Assembly (NCBI GenBank): GCA_947460345.1
Contig: CANHGM010000005.1
Span: 1-64,000 of the forward strand
Length of the DNA: 64,000 bases
Direction: 5' to 3'
DNA from: Bacteroidota bacterium
GTDB taxonomy: Bacteria; Bacteroidota; Bacteroidia; UKL13-3
Shown: in pieces, positions 58,215 to 64,000 of the stretch
Position numbering within the stretch: the stretch's first letter is position 1
Layout of the letters: every line of letters starts with the position of its first letter
Translations under genes and position numbers: made by a program
The notes under the pieces: model-generated
What the model saw: only the letters and a program-made list of their open reading frames with translations
Told to the model about the DNA's origin: nothing
Databases searched by the model: none

Positions 58215-59048
58215 CTATAAACTTATTCCAATTTCGAATGGTCTAATATCAGGGCCTTGTCCATCTTTAAATAATGAGAACAATGAATAATTTGCAAAAA
58301 GCATGAAATTTTTATACCCTACTCTTGCAGTTGCTTTTAAATTAAATGGACGTAAATGATAATTATCTTTAGCTACTAGTTCTATTGATTCTTTATTTTG
58401 TAAAAAGCTAAGTTTATACTTGCTATTATATATATAACTGCCAACAACGCCAATTGCTACTTTAACTCCTTTATCTGGGTTCTTTTTATTTCCACTAAAA
58501 CCTATCAATAATGGAACTTCTATAGATGAGACCCTAAGTTTATTTTTAGTGTATTCTTTAACTGTAGAAGTATCAAAACTTATTTTATTATTTACTATAT
58601 CATTATATAATTTAACATTTTTTGAAGAAAATTTATATCCATTATAATCTAAACCAAAGCCTGTAACCAAACTGAGTTTTTTCTTATATAAATTTAATTG
58701 TTTTTCGACTAGATTTAAATGAAGATTCCATGAACCACCGAAGTCTAAATCTAAATTATTACTAGAGCCATTTAAATTTGTAGAAAAATTACCTTGTTCC
58801 ATTAAACCATTCACCCCTATATCAATACCTTCATAAAAGGTAGCTAAAGGTTTTTTTATAGGTACTGGTTTGTATATAGTATCTTGTTTTTTATCAGTAT
58901 CAGGATCATTAAAAACCAATATTTTTAACCCACTCCAAAGAAAAACAGTTGTATCATTTTTCTCTTTTTTAATTCTAGGATTTTGTGCAAAAAGAACATG
59001 AGAAATAAAAACAGATAATGCTATAGTAAGTGTGATTCTAATTTTCAT
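58215..59048 (-). CDS. outer-membrane beta-barrel protein of the sigma-factor operon
   Basis: 277 residues with a signal peptide (MKIRITLTIALSVFISHVLFAQ). A short linker (residues 20-65) leads to strands with glycine turns (GIDVGVNGLMEQ begins it in the form EGIDIGVNGLMEQ; LSLVTGFGLDYNGYKFS; VKVAIGVVGSYIYNSK; MLFANYSLFSLF) ending FEIGISL. It resembles PorT-like or outer-membrane barrels in Bacteroidota. It is 36 bases downstream of the anti-sigma-like gene and probably its regulatory target or signal sensor. Confidence 0.7.
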   Translation of the reverse strand: MKIRITLTIALSVFISHVLFAQNPRIKKEKNDTTVFLWSGLKILVFNDPDTDKKQDTIYKPVPIKKPLATFYEGIDIGVNGLMEQGNFSTNLNGSSNNLDLDFGGSWNLHLNLVEKQLNLYKKKLSLVTGFGLDYNGYKFSSKNVKLYNDIVNNKISFDTSTVKEYTKNKLRVSSIEVPLLIGFSGNKKNPDKGVKVAIGVVGSYIYNSKYKLSFLQNKESIELVAKDNYHLRPFNLKATARVGYKNFMLFANYSLFSLFKDGQGPDIRPFEIGISL

Positions 59049-59084
59049 GTATATATTACGATTGATAAAAAGTATATGTTACAA

Positions 59085-60509
59085 TTATTTCGAAAATGAT
59101 CTGCCAATTTCAATATCTCCAATTTTAATAGCAATAATTTCACTAGTTTCTTGATCTTTTCTTTTTATTATACTTGAGTTTTGAGTTTTCTCTTTTATAA
59201 GTTTTACTGTGGCATATAGTACATTTCTCCAATTCAAGGTATTCTTATTTCCTTCCGTTTTTTCAACTAAATCTGTTCCTGCTTTTTCATTGATTTTTTC
59301 AATTATAAAATTTGATAAATCTGGCAAATGTGTTGTAGCCTTTATAGATGATGTATAATAATTATTAATATAAATCTTTTCTTCAGGCTTTAAATTTGAA
59401 ATATCACTAATAGTGGTTTTTTCGAAATGATCATTGGTCTCTAAATTTGATATACTCTTATTTGATTCTTGAATGTTTTTATATATTTTTTTGTTAGAAA
59501 TGCCAGGCTTTTGTGTATAATAATAATCATTAATATTAGGCTCTGATGCATCTATACTTTTTTTATTATTCAATACAGCTTGGGTAACATTTTGTACTTG
59601 AATATACTCTTCAAAATCATTTTTATAATTATCCTCTTTCGAATTATATGGCGAATTTGACGCAAAACTCTTTAATGAATTTGTTTGACTAGGTTCTATA
59701 TATTCAGAGCGATTATCTAAATCAATCGATATATTTTTTATAATATCTTTAGTATCATTAATGGACATAAATTGGTTAAAATCTGAATTTACTATATTGT
59801 TAATATTAACATAAAAAGTAGCTAAAAGTATCACAGCAGCAACTGATGAGTACTTTACAAACAAAGTAAATATAGGTGTTTTTAACTCTTTCTTTATTCT
59901 GTTTTTAAATGGATAAAGTACTTGTTCTTCAATTAATAGTTTTGTATAAGAATATAATTTTTTATCTTTAAGATATTGAGGATATTGATATAAAAAAATA
60001 TTAACTGCTTTTTCTTCACTGGGTGTTAAATCATTTTCAAGTTGTTTTATTAAAAACAGATCTATATTTCCAATATTTACTTCTTGGTTTACATCAAATC
60101 TTAAAAAACTTTTATATTTAAAGTTAATACTTTTGTCGATGTCTAATTTTGTTAGCTTATATAATTTATAATCGGCTATATATTGAGGGTTCTTTTCTAA
60201 GAATTCATATAACGCATATTTTTCATTTTCATTTAAATCATCCTCTATAGACCTTGCAAAATAATCATCAATGTTTACTTCATTTATTAGATTAGAATCA
60301 AATTCAGATTTTTTAAGATTTAATTTAAAATCTTGTTTTAAAATTATAGCTTCTTCATCTAGTGTGATTAACACAAACTCATCAAAAACTTTCTTCCAAT
60401 TTAGGTTTAGGTTAAGAAATGCAAAAAGTTCATCTATTTGATTTGGTAATAGATTTCCTTCAAAATAATCAAGTATAATGATTTCTATATTTTCTTCGTT
60501 TATACTCAT
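59085..60509 (-). CDS. anti-sigma-like single-span membrane protein
   Basis: 474 residues. The cytoplasmic N-terminal part (1-220) contains three related helical modules; two are clear, ENEKYALYEFLEKNPQYIAD and SEEKAVNIFLYQYPQYLKDK, with spacing as in anti-sigma factors but without the zinc-binding H/C residues. One span follows (VAAVILLATFYVNI, about 235-248) and then a long polar region rich in S, N, I and K, probably periplasmic. It starts at the base where the sigma-factor gene ends (one-base overlap), a strong sign of a sigma/anti-sigma pair. Confidence 0.7.
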   Translation of the reverse strand: MSINEENIEIIILDYFEGNLLPNQIDELFAFLNLNLNWKKVFDEFVLITLDEEAIILKQDFKLNLKKSEFDSNLINEVNIDDYFARSIEDDLNENEKYALYEFLEKNPQYIADYKLYKLTKLDIDKSINFKYKSFLRFDVNQEVNIGNIDLFLIKQLENDLTPSEEKAVNIFLYQYPQYLKDKKLYSYTKLLIEEQVLYPFKNRIKKELKTPIFTLFVKYSSVAAVILLATFYVNINNIVNSDFNQFMSINDTKDIIKNISIDLDNRSEYIEPSQTNSLKSFASNSPYNSKEDNYKNDFEEYIQVQNVTQAVLNNKKSIDASEPNINDYYYTQKPGISNKKIYKNIQESNKSISNLETNDHFEKTTISDISNLKPEEKIYINNYYTSSIKATTHLPDLSNFIIEKINEKAGTDLVEKTEGNKNTLNWRNVLYATVKLIKEKTQNSSIIKRKDQETSEIIAIKIGDIEIGRSFSK

Positions 60510-60994
60510 TAAATTACATTTTCTAATTTGCCAATATATTCTTTTAAATTCTGTCTACCTCTAAATATATAGACCTTTACTTGAGAAGGAGACAATCCTG
60601 TTATTTGACTGATTTCTTCATAACTATAACCCTCATAGTCTCTTAACATAATGACTGATTTTTGAATCTCATTCAACGTATTTAAAGCTTTATTTACAAT
60701 AGATTTCAAATCAGTATAATGTCTTTGATGTATATGTTCATATTCATTAACCTCATCCCAATTGGCTTGTTTTTTATCTTTTCTTATCAAGTCAATCATT
60801 GTTCTGTACCCTGTCGTAAATATATAGCTCTTAGCTTTTTCAAAATCAACTTCTACCACTTTTAACCATACTTTTTCAAAAGTATCTTGTACAATATCTT
60901 GTGCCTTGTCTTCATCCTTTATATTTTTCAATATAAAACGATATAGTCCATCTGAAAAAAGGTCAACACATGTATTGTATTCGGCCGATGTCAT
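60509..60994 (-). CDS. ECF-type RNA polymerase sigma factor
   Basis: 161 residues. Region 2 (about 5-80) has DEDKAQDIVQDTFEKVWLKV and a -10-recognition stretch (TGYRTMIDLIRKDKK). Region 4 (about 105-155) is LNEIQKSVIMLRDYEGYSYE then EISQITGLSPSQVKVYIFRG RQNLKEYI, a helix-turn-helix (written in two blocks). It directs transcription of a stress or envelope regulon; the adjacent anti-sigma-like gene overlaps its stop by one base and the barrel gene follows. The stop and start overlap indicate coupled translation. Confidence 0.92.
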   Translation of the reverse strand: MTSAEYNTCVDLFSDGLYRFILKNIKDEDKAQDIVQDTFEKVWLKVVEVDFEKAKSYIFTTGYRTMIDLIRKDKKQANWDEVNEYEHIHQRHYTDLKSIVNKALNTLNEIQKSVIMLRDYEGYSYEEISQITGLSPSQVKVYIFRGRQNLKEYIGKLENVI

Positions 60995-61072: not shown

Positions 61073-61903
61073 TTACTTAAGATTTTCAGATACAATTTTC
61101 GAAGCCCTACTTGAAACTTCTGCTTTTAATTCTCTATTATACTTTTTAGCACTTTTATATGCTCCAAAAATATTACCAGAATAAAAAGCTAAAGTTAGAC
61201 CACCATATATATAACCATAAACGCTTTTTGTTCCTCTTTTTTCAAATCCTCTGTATGATTGCCAAGCTGATAGACTTACAAATACAAATGAAACAATTCC
61301 ATCTTTATAGTCTTTGGCATATATTTTCCCTAATCCTGGAACAATTGTAGAAAGCCCAGCTGCTAATCCTGGTCGTTTTAGCTTTTCATTCTCTACAATT
61401 TTTACTAAAGGGTCAAAACTTAGTATGGAAGGATATTTCAAAGTATCGTTTTTTAGGTATATATTTTCTATATATTTTACATCATATATGTGGAATGCTA
61501 AACTTATTTCATAGTTCTTTTTCATTTCATCACTTAAACTATTACAGCTAGCAATTAGGTATCTTGCTTCTTCCCATTTATTAAGTTTAATAAGCAAAGT
61601 CAAATAAGTATTTGAAATAGAATTAGGTAAATTACTAGTTTCTGGATAGAAAATTTTACATCTATTATACCCTTCACTATATTGTTCGTCTATTAAATAT
61701 GTTTTGATAAGTACCGACTTAATAGAATCGTTGTCAGGCGAAAGATATACTGCTCTTTCAAGTTCTTCAATTACTAATTTATATTGTTTGGTTTTGAATA
61801 GATATTGAGCATATTGAGTGGTTTTGTCAAAATCAAAAAGATTTTGTGAATAACTCATTTTTTGTAAAGTAAATAACACAAGAATTAACAGCCACTTCTG
61901 CAT
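61073..61903 (-). CDS. exported TPR protein with DUF5683-like C-terminal membrane domain
   Basis: 276 residues with a signal peptide (MQKWLLILVLFTLQKMSYSQ). Residues 25-160 are TPR-like helices (QYAQYLFKTKQYKLVIEELE). The C-terminus (175-276) begins GLAAGLSTIVPGLGKIYAKD, a P-G-L-G-x-I-Y hairpin as in DUF5683/TM2-type domains, then two or three short hydrophobic helices. It follows the small barrel gene by 6 bases and is the last gene of the export cluster. Function unknown; membrane location likely. Confidence 0.7.
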   Translation of the reverse strand: MQKWLLILVLFTLQKMSYSQNLFDFDKTTQYAQYLFKTKQYKLVIEELERAVYLSPDNDSIKSVLIKTYLIDEQYSEGYNRCKIFYPETSNLPNSISNTYLTLLIKLNKWEEARYLIASCNSLSDEMKKNYEISLAFHIYDVKYIENIYLKNDTLKYPSILSFDPLVKIVENEKLKRPGLAAGLSTIVPGLGKIYAKDYKDGIVSFVFVSLSAWQSYRGFEKRGTKSVYGYIYGGLTLAFYSGNIFGAYKSAKKYNRELKAEVSSRASKIVSENLK

Positions 61904-61909
61904 AAATTT

Positions 61910-62530
61910 CTAAAATTTATAAGTAGCTCCAAATTGCAATACTGATTTAGCAATACCAACTTCTGAATACAAACCAAAATTTTCTGTGATTAAATACCTT
62001 GCTCCAATTACTGCCTCAAATCCTAATGGTATATTAAACTCATTCTGTTTGGTTGTTTTACCTGTAAACCCATCTGTTACTTTATTATCAGCATATCTAT
62101 AACCAAATGCTAAACCTGTATAGAAATCAAAATTATCTTCTGGATTAAAATGATAGTTAATCCTTCCTAGTATACTATAAGATAAAAAACTATATTTATC
62201 AGTAACTGTTGTATCATTCCCATTTCTATTTGTTGAATAAGTACTATTTAAATTATATTTTACCAATGCAAAATTTCCACCAAATGAAACATCATCATTA
62301 ACCATGTATTCAATTCTTAAATATACTGGACCTAGCAGTGAGGAGCTAGTAGTTTCGTTTGAAAGCATAGATGAAGATGCAGAAGTATTAAATGCATCAA
62401 AAAACAATGCTCTATAGCTTCCTAATCCATAACCAACAGAAGCCATTGCTTGTCCTGCTTCTATAGATTGTGAAATAGCATTAAATCTGAACGCTATAAA
62501 AAAAATAACTATAAATATTTTAAATTTCAT
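61910..62530 (-). CDS. small outer-membrane beta-barrel protein
   Basis: 206 residues with a signal peptide (MKFKIFIVIFFIAFRFNAISQS). Strands alternate with turns throughout (GQAMASVGYGLGSYRALFF, VSFGGNFALVKYNLNST, FYTGLAFGYRYADN, FGLYSEVGIAKSVLQFGATY) and the protein ends in an aromatic terminal strand KF, the signature of an OmpA/OmpX-type barrel. It lies 3 bases after the YidD-like gene and 6 before the TPR gene, so the group is one transcript. Confidence 0.75.
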   Translation of the reverse strand: MKFKIFIVIFFIAFRFNAISQSIEAGQAMASVGYGLGSYRALFFDAFNTSASSSMLSNETTSSSLLGPVYLRIEYMVNDDVSFGGNFALVKYNLNSTYSTNRNGNDTTVTDKYSFLSYSILGRINYHFNPEDNFDFYTGLAFGYRYADNKVTDGFTGKTTKQNEFNIPLGFEAVIGARYLITENFGLYSEVGIAKSVLQFGATYKF

Positions 62531-62533
62531 ATA

Positions 62534-62917
62534 TTAAGGTTTGTCAATTAATTGCTCTGTTTCTTCGTTATACTCGTATTTTTCAGGACTTAACCCATTG
62601 CAACGCAACAGTCTGTCACAAGCATCTATAACTCCGATGATAAACCCATGTTTTTTTAATGATGTAATGGCATACTCACTACAACTTGGTTCAAACCCAC
62701 AATGGTTATTGTCTTGTGATGATATAAACGATTTATATCCAAGAAATAAAAATGAAAATACTGATTGAACTCCGTTTTTATTATTTTTTGCAACTAGCCA
62801 ATGTGTGTGATTCTCTGATGTTATACAAATATTTTCTACAAAAGCTATGTCTTTTTTTTGTTGTGAATATACATTTGAAGTTATAAGTAATAATAAAATC
62901 ATTAGATACTTATTCAT
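62534..62917 (-). CDS. YidD-family protein with an N-terminal signal sequence
   Basis: 127 residues. The C-terminal half is a YidD domain: CGFEPSCSEYAITSLKKHGF followed by IGVIDACDRLLRCNGLSPE. In most bacteria YidD (about 80 residues) lies in the rnpA-yidC region and aids inner-membrane protein insertion from the cytoplasmic side. Here the N-terminus is a hydrophobic signal-like stretch (MNKYLMILLLLITSNVYSQQ) with an AxA-free but SQ-type cleavage site, then about 45 extra residues, so the domain would face the periplasm. It sits among exported-protein genes, with 1- and 3-base gaps. Confidence 0.82.
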   Translation of the reverse strand: MNKYLMILLLLITSNVYSQQKKDIAFVENICITSENHTHWLVAKNNKNGVQSVFSFLFLGYKSFISSQDNNHCGFEPSCSEYAITSLKKHGFIIGVIDACDRLLRCNGLSPEKYEYNEETEQLIDKP

Positions 62918-62918
62918 A

Positions 62919-63332
62919 CTAAAATATACTAAGATTATTAAGATTGTCTAATAAACCACTATCAATAATAACACCTGCAATGAAAACAATAACATTGGTT
63001 GAAGCACCCATACAAAAAGATACTTTATCTTCTCTAGTTACATTCTTTTTAGCAATTAAATATATCGCTCCATATTGCCAACAACATGCACCTAAAACAA
63101 AGTATTTAAAATTTATATCATCAAAAGTAAATGATTTAATACTGTCATTTTGAATTTGATATTTTAGTAATTTATTAACTTCAATTGATGTTGGATCAAA
63201 TTGAATTATTTGTTCAGCTTTATTAATATTAGACAGTCTAGCTTCTACACTATTAATGTCTAAATCATAAACGCTCTGAGAATTCACAAATAGAGATTTA
63301 GAAAGAAAAAATAGAATAATTAAGTATTTCAT
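62919..63332 (-). CDS. exported hypothetical protein
   Basis: 137 residues with a signal peptide (MKYLIILFFLSKSLFVNSQ). After a polar helical part (VEARLSNINKAEQIIQFD) it has two hydrophobic segments (YFVLGACCWQYGAIYLIAKK and CMGASTNVIVFIAGVIIDSG), the first with a Cys-Cys pair. No family is recognised. It ends one base before the YidD-like gene begins and follows the LolA-like gene by 76 bases. Confidence 0.55.
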   Translation of the reverse strand: MKYLIILFFLSKSLFVNSQSVYDLDINSVEARLSNINKAEQIIQFDPTSIEVNKLLKYQIQNDSIKSFTFDDINFKYFVLGACCWQYGAIYLIAKKNVTREDKVSFCMGASTNVIVFIAGVIIDSGLLDNLNNLSIF

Positions 63333-63408
63333 TAAATTTATATTTTTTAAAGATTCAAATATGATACTTATTTTTTGAATTTCATAAAAAAAAACAACTT
63401 AAATTTAG

Positions 63409-64000
63409 TTACTTATTTAGTTTACTTAAATCTATAAAATAATCTTGTTCATGTGAATTATCATCTATTTTAATTTCTTTAAATTGATATTTTTTAATCA
63501 CTTCATTTTTATCAAAATATATAAATTGATAATAAATAGTAGGAACTTGTATGTTTTTAACAGTTATATAATCTTTAAAAAACAATTTCATATAAAATTG
63601 ATTACTTTTAGGTTTAAAGAAAATAACTGATGATAAAATTTTGTTTTCATAAGCTAGGTCAATCATACCCAAATCTTTTGTTTTAGGCTTAAAAGATTGA
63701 ATTGTTAAACCTGAAACTTTTTTTGTTTGATAAAGTATATATGGAGATTTGTTTAATCCGAAATTATTTAGCTGTTGTAAAAGAATTAATTTAAAAATGT
63801 TTGTTGATTCAATTTTATATGTATTATTTGTAAATACAATTTTATTATTTCTTACAATACTCATTGATGAGTCAGTAAAAACCCAATCCTCAATAACAGG
63901 AAATTTGATTTTATATATCAGTTGTTTATAATTAATATCATAGAAAACTTTTCCTTTATATAATGCATTTATGCTATCACTTTTTTCTTTAATAGTTAAA
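63409..64000 (-). CDS. LolA-like exported protein (5' truncated by the window end)
   Basis: The frame is open to the last base, so the start lies beyond 64000; the ATG at 63864 is internal. About 196 residues are visible. The order GKVFYDINYKQLIYKIKFP, EDWVFTDSSMSIVRNNKIV, and later FFKPKSNQFYMKLF then YQFKEIKIDD resembles the half-barrel of LolA-type lipoprotein chaperones, which use strand-helix elements of this kind. The match is weak and by eye. It is probably the first visible gene of the export cluster. Confidence 0.55.
   Translation of the reverse strand, partial: LTIKEKSDSINALYKGKVFYDINYKQLIYKIKFPVIEDWVFTDSSMSIVRNNKIVFTNNTYKIESTNIFKLILLQQLNNFGLNKSPYILYQTKKVSGLTIQSFKPKTKDLGMIDLAYENKILSSVIFFKPKSNQFYMKLFFKDYITVKNIQVPTIYYQFIYFDKNEVIKKYQFKEIKIDDNSHEQDYFIDLSKLNK

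Follow-up and report, generated by a model that had tools for sequence, protein, structure and literature searches.

What does a YidD protein do behind a signal peptide, in an operon of other exported proteins? The canonical form is found widely and is a small protein that assists membrane-protein insertion from the cytoplasmic side. The paralog considered here lies in the last 3 kb of the window, by which we mean the whole stretch of DNA analyzed (the first 64 kb of contig 5, itself 120 kb, in a 3.0-Mb genome of 76 contigs that belongs to Bacteroidota, judging from its relatives). There, the initial annotation had described five minus-strand genes spaced by 1 to 76 bases. All five are present, and the intergenic gaps are 76, 1, 3, and 6 nt in the order of transcription.

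An operon of predicted exported proteins and its YidD paralog

The first gene of the operon codes for a LolA-like periplasmic carrier (63409–64000 in the window, with an open reading frame that continues to 64113 in the DNA examined past 64000; minus strand, 234 aa). It is followed on the same strand by genes for an exported two-span hairpin protein (62919–63332, 137 aa), the YidD paralog (62534–62917, 127 aa), a small outer-membrane-barrel-like protein (61910–62530, 206 aa), and an exported tetratricopeptide repeat (TPR) protein with a C-terminal PGxG (DUF5683-like) helical hairpin (61073–61903, 276 aa), which we designated TPR_A. As read from the sequence, all five proteins have a signal-peptide-like N-terminus followed by a glutamine at the +1 position (predicted cleavage sites SYS↓QN, AIS↓QS, VYS↓QQ, VNS↓QS, and LNA↓QH). 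Glutamine at +1 is the rule for signal peptidase I substrates in Bacteroidota (PMC5837995). A promoter scan gave no excess over shuffled sequences, and the locus had no PADLOC match, so we rejected an anti-phage system.

The regions on either side of the operon have their own features. Just downstream (58215–60994, minus strand) are genes for an ECF sigma factor, an outer-membrane barrel, and a 474-aa protein with a central transmembrane segment and no family match, possibly an anti-sigma factor; this group looks like a separate regulated unit. Past the window end, upstream of the operon, a region (L004:8111–12978) codes for PorW/SprE of type IX secretion (NF052312, 524 bits) and a SurA/PpiC-type isomerase. 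An aminotransferase-like gene stands between this region and the operon.

The YidD paralog has a predicted signal peptide (amino acids 1–18) and a YidD domain (about amino acids 53–115) that matches PF01809 (65.6 bits, cut-off 27, E = 3.4e-18) and TIGR00278 (56.4 bits, cut-off 40, E = 2e-15). The source genome has one other YidD gene, a canonical copy of 77 aa that overlaps rnpA on contig 10. The C-x5-C-S core of the canonical proteins (PF01809, TIGR00278; rnpA-yidD-yidC locus) is conserved in the window copy, which keeps all three cysteines. Unlike canonical YidD, the window protein and its relatives (hereafter exported YidD, for their predicted export) have a signal peptide, form a separate clade, are nearly neutral in charge, and neighbor TPR and LolA-like genes instead of rnpA and yidC. 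The window copy is itself linked to such genes and not to rnpA or yidC.

A single branch (support 100/96, present in all bootstrap trees) separates the exported from the canonical proteins in a 161-row tree, with one label change, although the short domain (69 columns) leaves many inner forks open; the exported proteins also fall outside the clade of rnpA-linked YidDs. The net charge of the YidD core averages +6.25 (sd 1.05) in canonical versus +0.6 (sd 2.95) in exported copies. In the latter, the canonical SPLLP motif is replaced by S(S/D)xDG, the KR pair becomes DR (with aspartate in 97%), and the arginine after the first cysteine is lost. The first two cysteines are invariant in both groups; the third is an aspartate in about half of the exported proteins. 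The biochemistry of exported YidD may therefore differ, because the basic surface is lost and the third cysteine is often replaced. Searches by sequence found no relatives of YidD in the PDB. Together, the comparisons strongly support the assignment of exported YidD to a distinct and widespread subfamily paralogous to canonical YidD.

The window protein has a predicted Sec signal peptide with glutamine at +1, as do 29 of 29 exported copies from Bacteroidia when scored with a +1 caller that prefers glutamine. The glutamine after the predicted cleavage site is also invariant in 15 aligned exported YidDs, which is cleaner evidence than the caller. Furthermore, none of the 29 Bacteroidia copies examined has a second transmembrane segment before the YidD domain. 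The signal sequence that the initial annotation had read as placing the protein outside the cytoplasm is consistent with all of these features, and the predicted export is well supported. Cleavage of the signal peptide is a prediction only, so the N-terminal segment could instead be an uncleaved anchor that tethers YidD to the inner membrane. We consider this very unlikely, given that the glutamine conserved without exception in Bacteroidia at the predicted +1 position is as expected for signal peptidase I substrates (PMC5837995). The basic n-region argues for an N-in orientation and, therefore, even an anchored YidD domain would face the periplasm.

Distribution of exported YidD and its TPR partners

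All 53 genomes from the same order contain canonical YidD. In 15 of them there is at least one additional YidD of more divergent sequence, and 14 of these genomes have a true exported copy, always with a signal peptide. The extra YidD of the remaining genome (G033, L047:2497–2709) is a 70-aa protein without a signal peptide and unlinked to TPR genes, which represents a third YidD context and was not counted as the exported type. Two YidD matches were also found in many genomes of the phylum sample, including all 26 of one family (f18). In the GTDB genome collection, a DNA pattern identified at least 118 stretches of the exported type, 80 of which were made into loci. Among the matches listed are Chitinophagales, Cytophagales, Saprospiraceae, Ignavibacteria (including Melioribacter roseus), a Chlorobiaceae metagenome-assembled genome (MAG), Poribacteria, Spirochaetota (including Leptospiraceae), and a few proteobacterial MAGs, a lower bound since the pattern misses the SSQINA variant. 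At least two YidD genes, exported plus canonical or near-canonical, were present in 20 of 21 genomes from other lineages, the exception being a 2.0-Mb MAG; in the Leptospiraceae genome of this set, the other two YidD copies are atypical in length.

Some copies depart from the common type. In a Leptospiraceae MAG with three YidD matches, a 489-aa frame (L288:4455–5924) combines an outer-membrane-barrel-like part, a signal-peptide-like segment, and an exported YidD, as a natural fusion or a frameshift. Poribacteria (L201, L210, and L178) have a second, divergent type of exported YidD with a REVITHQDG-like motif, and TPR-type genes lie beside it where the contig reaches (L201 and L178).

The constant partners of exported YidD are two TPR/DUF5683-like proteins, TPR_A and TPR_B. 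We examined 105 unique long-YidD loci for which no less than 300 nt of downstream sequence was available (from Bacteroidota, Ignavibacteria, Poribacteria, Spirochaetota, and proteobacterial MAGs). In 100 of them, a gene for TPR_A or TPR_B lies downstream, in the same orientation and at most 1.5 kb away. For 95 of these 100 loci the distance is at most 120 nt, and the genes often overlap by 4 nt (ATGA). The five loci without a TPR gene comprise two canonical copies beside yidC (L124 and L127, where the identity of yidC was confirmed), two contig ends, and one unexplained case. The linkage is not circular because the search patterns used YidD only. By comparison, a set of 50 loci with canonical YidD, each of about 3.2 kb, contained one weak TPR_B match, at the edge of a locus. 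Furthermore, a search with TPR_A alone across the 53 order genomes gave matches below 1e-50 in exactly the 14 genomes with exported YidD and in one other (G014), where the contig starts with the TPR_A gene. Two TPR_A matches were found in the genome that has two exported YidDs. The co-occurrence has a Fisher p of 6e-12 (kinship ignored). Presence of the pair is patchy within genera and, therefore, the two genes were gained or lost together. The initial annotation had proposed such a survey, and its results rule out a chance neighborhood. The second partner can be separated from the module: TPR_B of the source genome is on contig 2 (L285:5194–6066), adjoining atpDC and radA-like genes. In Ignavibacteria-type loci, a gene for an ACT-domain protein of about 140 aa (PF13740, about 1e-9) follows TPR_B, often with an ATGA overlap (L128:3695–4120, L120:8075–8503, and L123:3735–4154); its position beside exported proteins is unexplained.

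TPR_A of the window has weak TPR matches and a DUF5683 match at E = 0.14. Matches to DUF5683 at or below 0.01 were found in 13 of 45 homologs (best 1.2e-4). The AlphaFold2 (AF2) model of TPR_A (pLDDT 94.7) has a helical-repeat domain followed, after the PGxG motif, by two long C-terminal helices. Structural relatives in the PDB were generic TPR proteins only (best E = 0.012). The C-terminal PGxG hairpin of TPR_A and TPR_B is also a feature of DUF5683/TM2-domain proteins, which, unlike the partners, lack a TPR domain ahead of it. Insertion of the TPR_A hairpin into a membrane is likely but not certain, since its helices in the window copy are only moderately hydrophobic.

The constancy of these partners also bears on a possible role outside the envelope. 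Certain relatives of YidD were formerly called hemolytic proteins, and exported YidD is small, exported, and cysteine-bearing, as a secreted, hemolysin-like effector would be. The fixed operon with membrane-scaffold proteins and the second YidD copy in every genome of family f18 make an effector highly improbable.

The LolA-like, hairpin, and barrel genes

The initial annotation had also suggested that a possible LolA-type carrier and a barrel could form, with YidD, a route for lipoproteins or outer-membrane proteins. The carrier was borne out by the predicted fold of a homolog. The window copy had no Pfam match, falling below the curated cut-off of the LolA profile, and members of its family gave weak profile matches, to LolA (0.0065 for the best member) and, for others, to DUF4292 or DUF2092. 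However, the AF2 model of a homolog (L180, pLDDT 91.8), which shares 29% identity with the window copy over its part, matched LolA-superfamily structures in Foldseek (3buu, 7.8e-11, and many LolA entries). The lolA-like gene was found in five of the 53 order genomes, each time directly upstream in the exported-YidD locus, and is thus an optional, module-specific part. It shares with LolA the fold and the signal peptide and is an extra copy, as the source genome has a separate bona fide LolA; it differs in scoring below LolA profile cut-offs and in its fixed place next to exported YidD. LolA3 of Porphyromonas gingivalis (PMC13103446, PDB 9tp6) is likewise an extra copy with a LolA fold and a signal peptide.

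The barrel did not hold up as a part of the route. It matched OMP_b-brl just under the cut-off of that family (E = 3.3e-6), and no homolog was found among the 3909 open reading frames of all loci. Hence, we rejected it as part of the module: although within the operon, it is confined to the copy of the locus in this genome, with no counterpart in related loci, and most probably represents an insertion. We found no specific indication of outer-membrane-protein or general lipoprotein traffic.

The protein encoded at 62919–63332 has two transmembrane-like segments besides its signal peptide. It belongs to a family of about 150 aa whose genes lie upstream of lolA-like in other Bacteroidia, being the best of 548 targets (E = 2.8e-5) for the profile of that family. 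It had no Pfam match, including to TM2 (PF05154). True signal-peptide TM2 proteins are encoded close to the module in relatives (L037 and L040) and a TM2 lipoprotein is near it in another (L036), whereas the window protein has no recognizable TM2 domain. TM2 genes are rare, with zero to two copies in each genome. Even so, of the eight module genomes that have TM2, five have a TM2 gene no farther than about 2.6 kb from exported YidD. We rejected a strict dependence of TM2 on the module, as TM2 also occurs in genomes without it. An exported two-span gene, counted by topology or profile, was present within 3.2 kb in 23 of 27 loci with a LolA-like gene versus 7 of 60 without, a contrast that kinship inflates and in which some of the seven look like antisense reading frames. 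The association of LolA-like and hairpin genes partly reflects shared ancestry. As candidate clients, we prefer the small exported two-span hairpin proteins to lipoproteins or barrels.

The optional genes can be interpreted in more than one way, and two alternatives to the mechanism favored below deserve serious consideration. The LolA-like protein could carry a specific lipid, pigment precursor, or lipoprotein, with exported YidD and the TPR proteins as a docking platform at the membrane and the hairpin protein as the inner-membrane donor. The LolA fold of the homolog model, the confinement of the gene to the module, and the TM2 lipoprotein in one relative are consistent with such dedicated transport. 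Furthermore, Bacteroidota have specialized LolA paralogs, the LolA2/LolB2 of flexirubin loci, which are also locus-specific extra copies and for which the same role was proposed (PMC11885536). Unlike in flexirubin loci, no LolB-like, pigment, or other biosynthetic genes were recognized at the module loci read, and a LolA-like gene is missing from most modules outside Bacteroidia and Poribacteria. Hence, we regard cargo transport as possible but doubtful. The constancy of TPR_A and TPR_B could alternatively mean that exported YidD only folds or inserts these two neighbors, via their C-terminal helical hairpins, that the real function resides in the TPR proteins, and that the optional LolA-like and two-span genes are add-ons. 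This would leave unexplained the restriction of LolA-like to the module and its association with hairpin genes, and we consider such a self-contained assembly unlikely.

A putative periplasmic-face pathway

The evidence strongly supports the locus as a conserved module of exported YidD and TPR partners and points to an undescribed pathway of the cell envelope; no description of an exported YidD module was found in the papers searched. The mechanism that we rate highest, though tentatively, is the handling or insertion of hydrophobic hairpin proteins by a module dedicated to this task at the periplasmic face. Exported YidD, once its signal peptide is cleaved, would work on the periplasmic side of a membrane and form an assembly there with TPR_A and TPR_B. 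The assembly may receive short hydrophobic proteins of the helical-hairpin type, or assist their insertion (the two-span protein of this operon and signal-peptide TM2 proteins in relatives), and the LolA-like protein may shield their hydrophobic segments in the periplasm. We favor hairpin handling because YidD is reported to act in membrane insertion, because its partners here are rich in hairpins, and because LolA-like genes are linked to two-span genes. The insertion role would extend to exported YidD by analogy with the canonical protein, for which PMC8082313 cites Yu et al. (2011) on membrane insertion. The physical complex, its clients, the direction of transport, and the target membrane are likewise parts that we infer. 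The LolA-like and hairpin genes are not obligatory, as many modules of Ignavibacteria and Spirochaetota have neither in recognizable form at the locus.

In its broadest form, the proposal is that bacteria of several phyla possess a pathway that derives from YidD and operates at the periplasmic face. It would insert exported helical-hairpin (TM2-like) proteins into a membrane from outside, or deliver them there, in some lineages with a LolA-like carrier of its own. We offer this generalization as a speculative one that is rather improbable as a whole. If true, the pathway would mirror the cytoplasmic insertion of membrane proteins by YidC and YidD. Because the sister family has fixed partners and is predicted to act in a different compartment, it offers a way to separate the role of the YidD domain from its cytoplasmic setting. 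The module is, furthermore, a ready-made gene set for finding how the periplasm handles exported hydrophobic-hairpin proteins.
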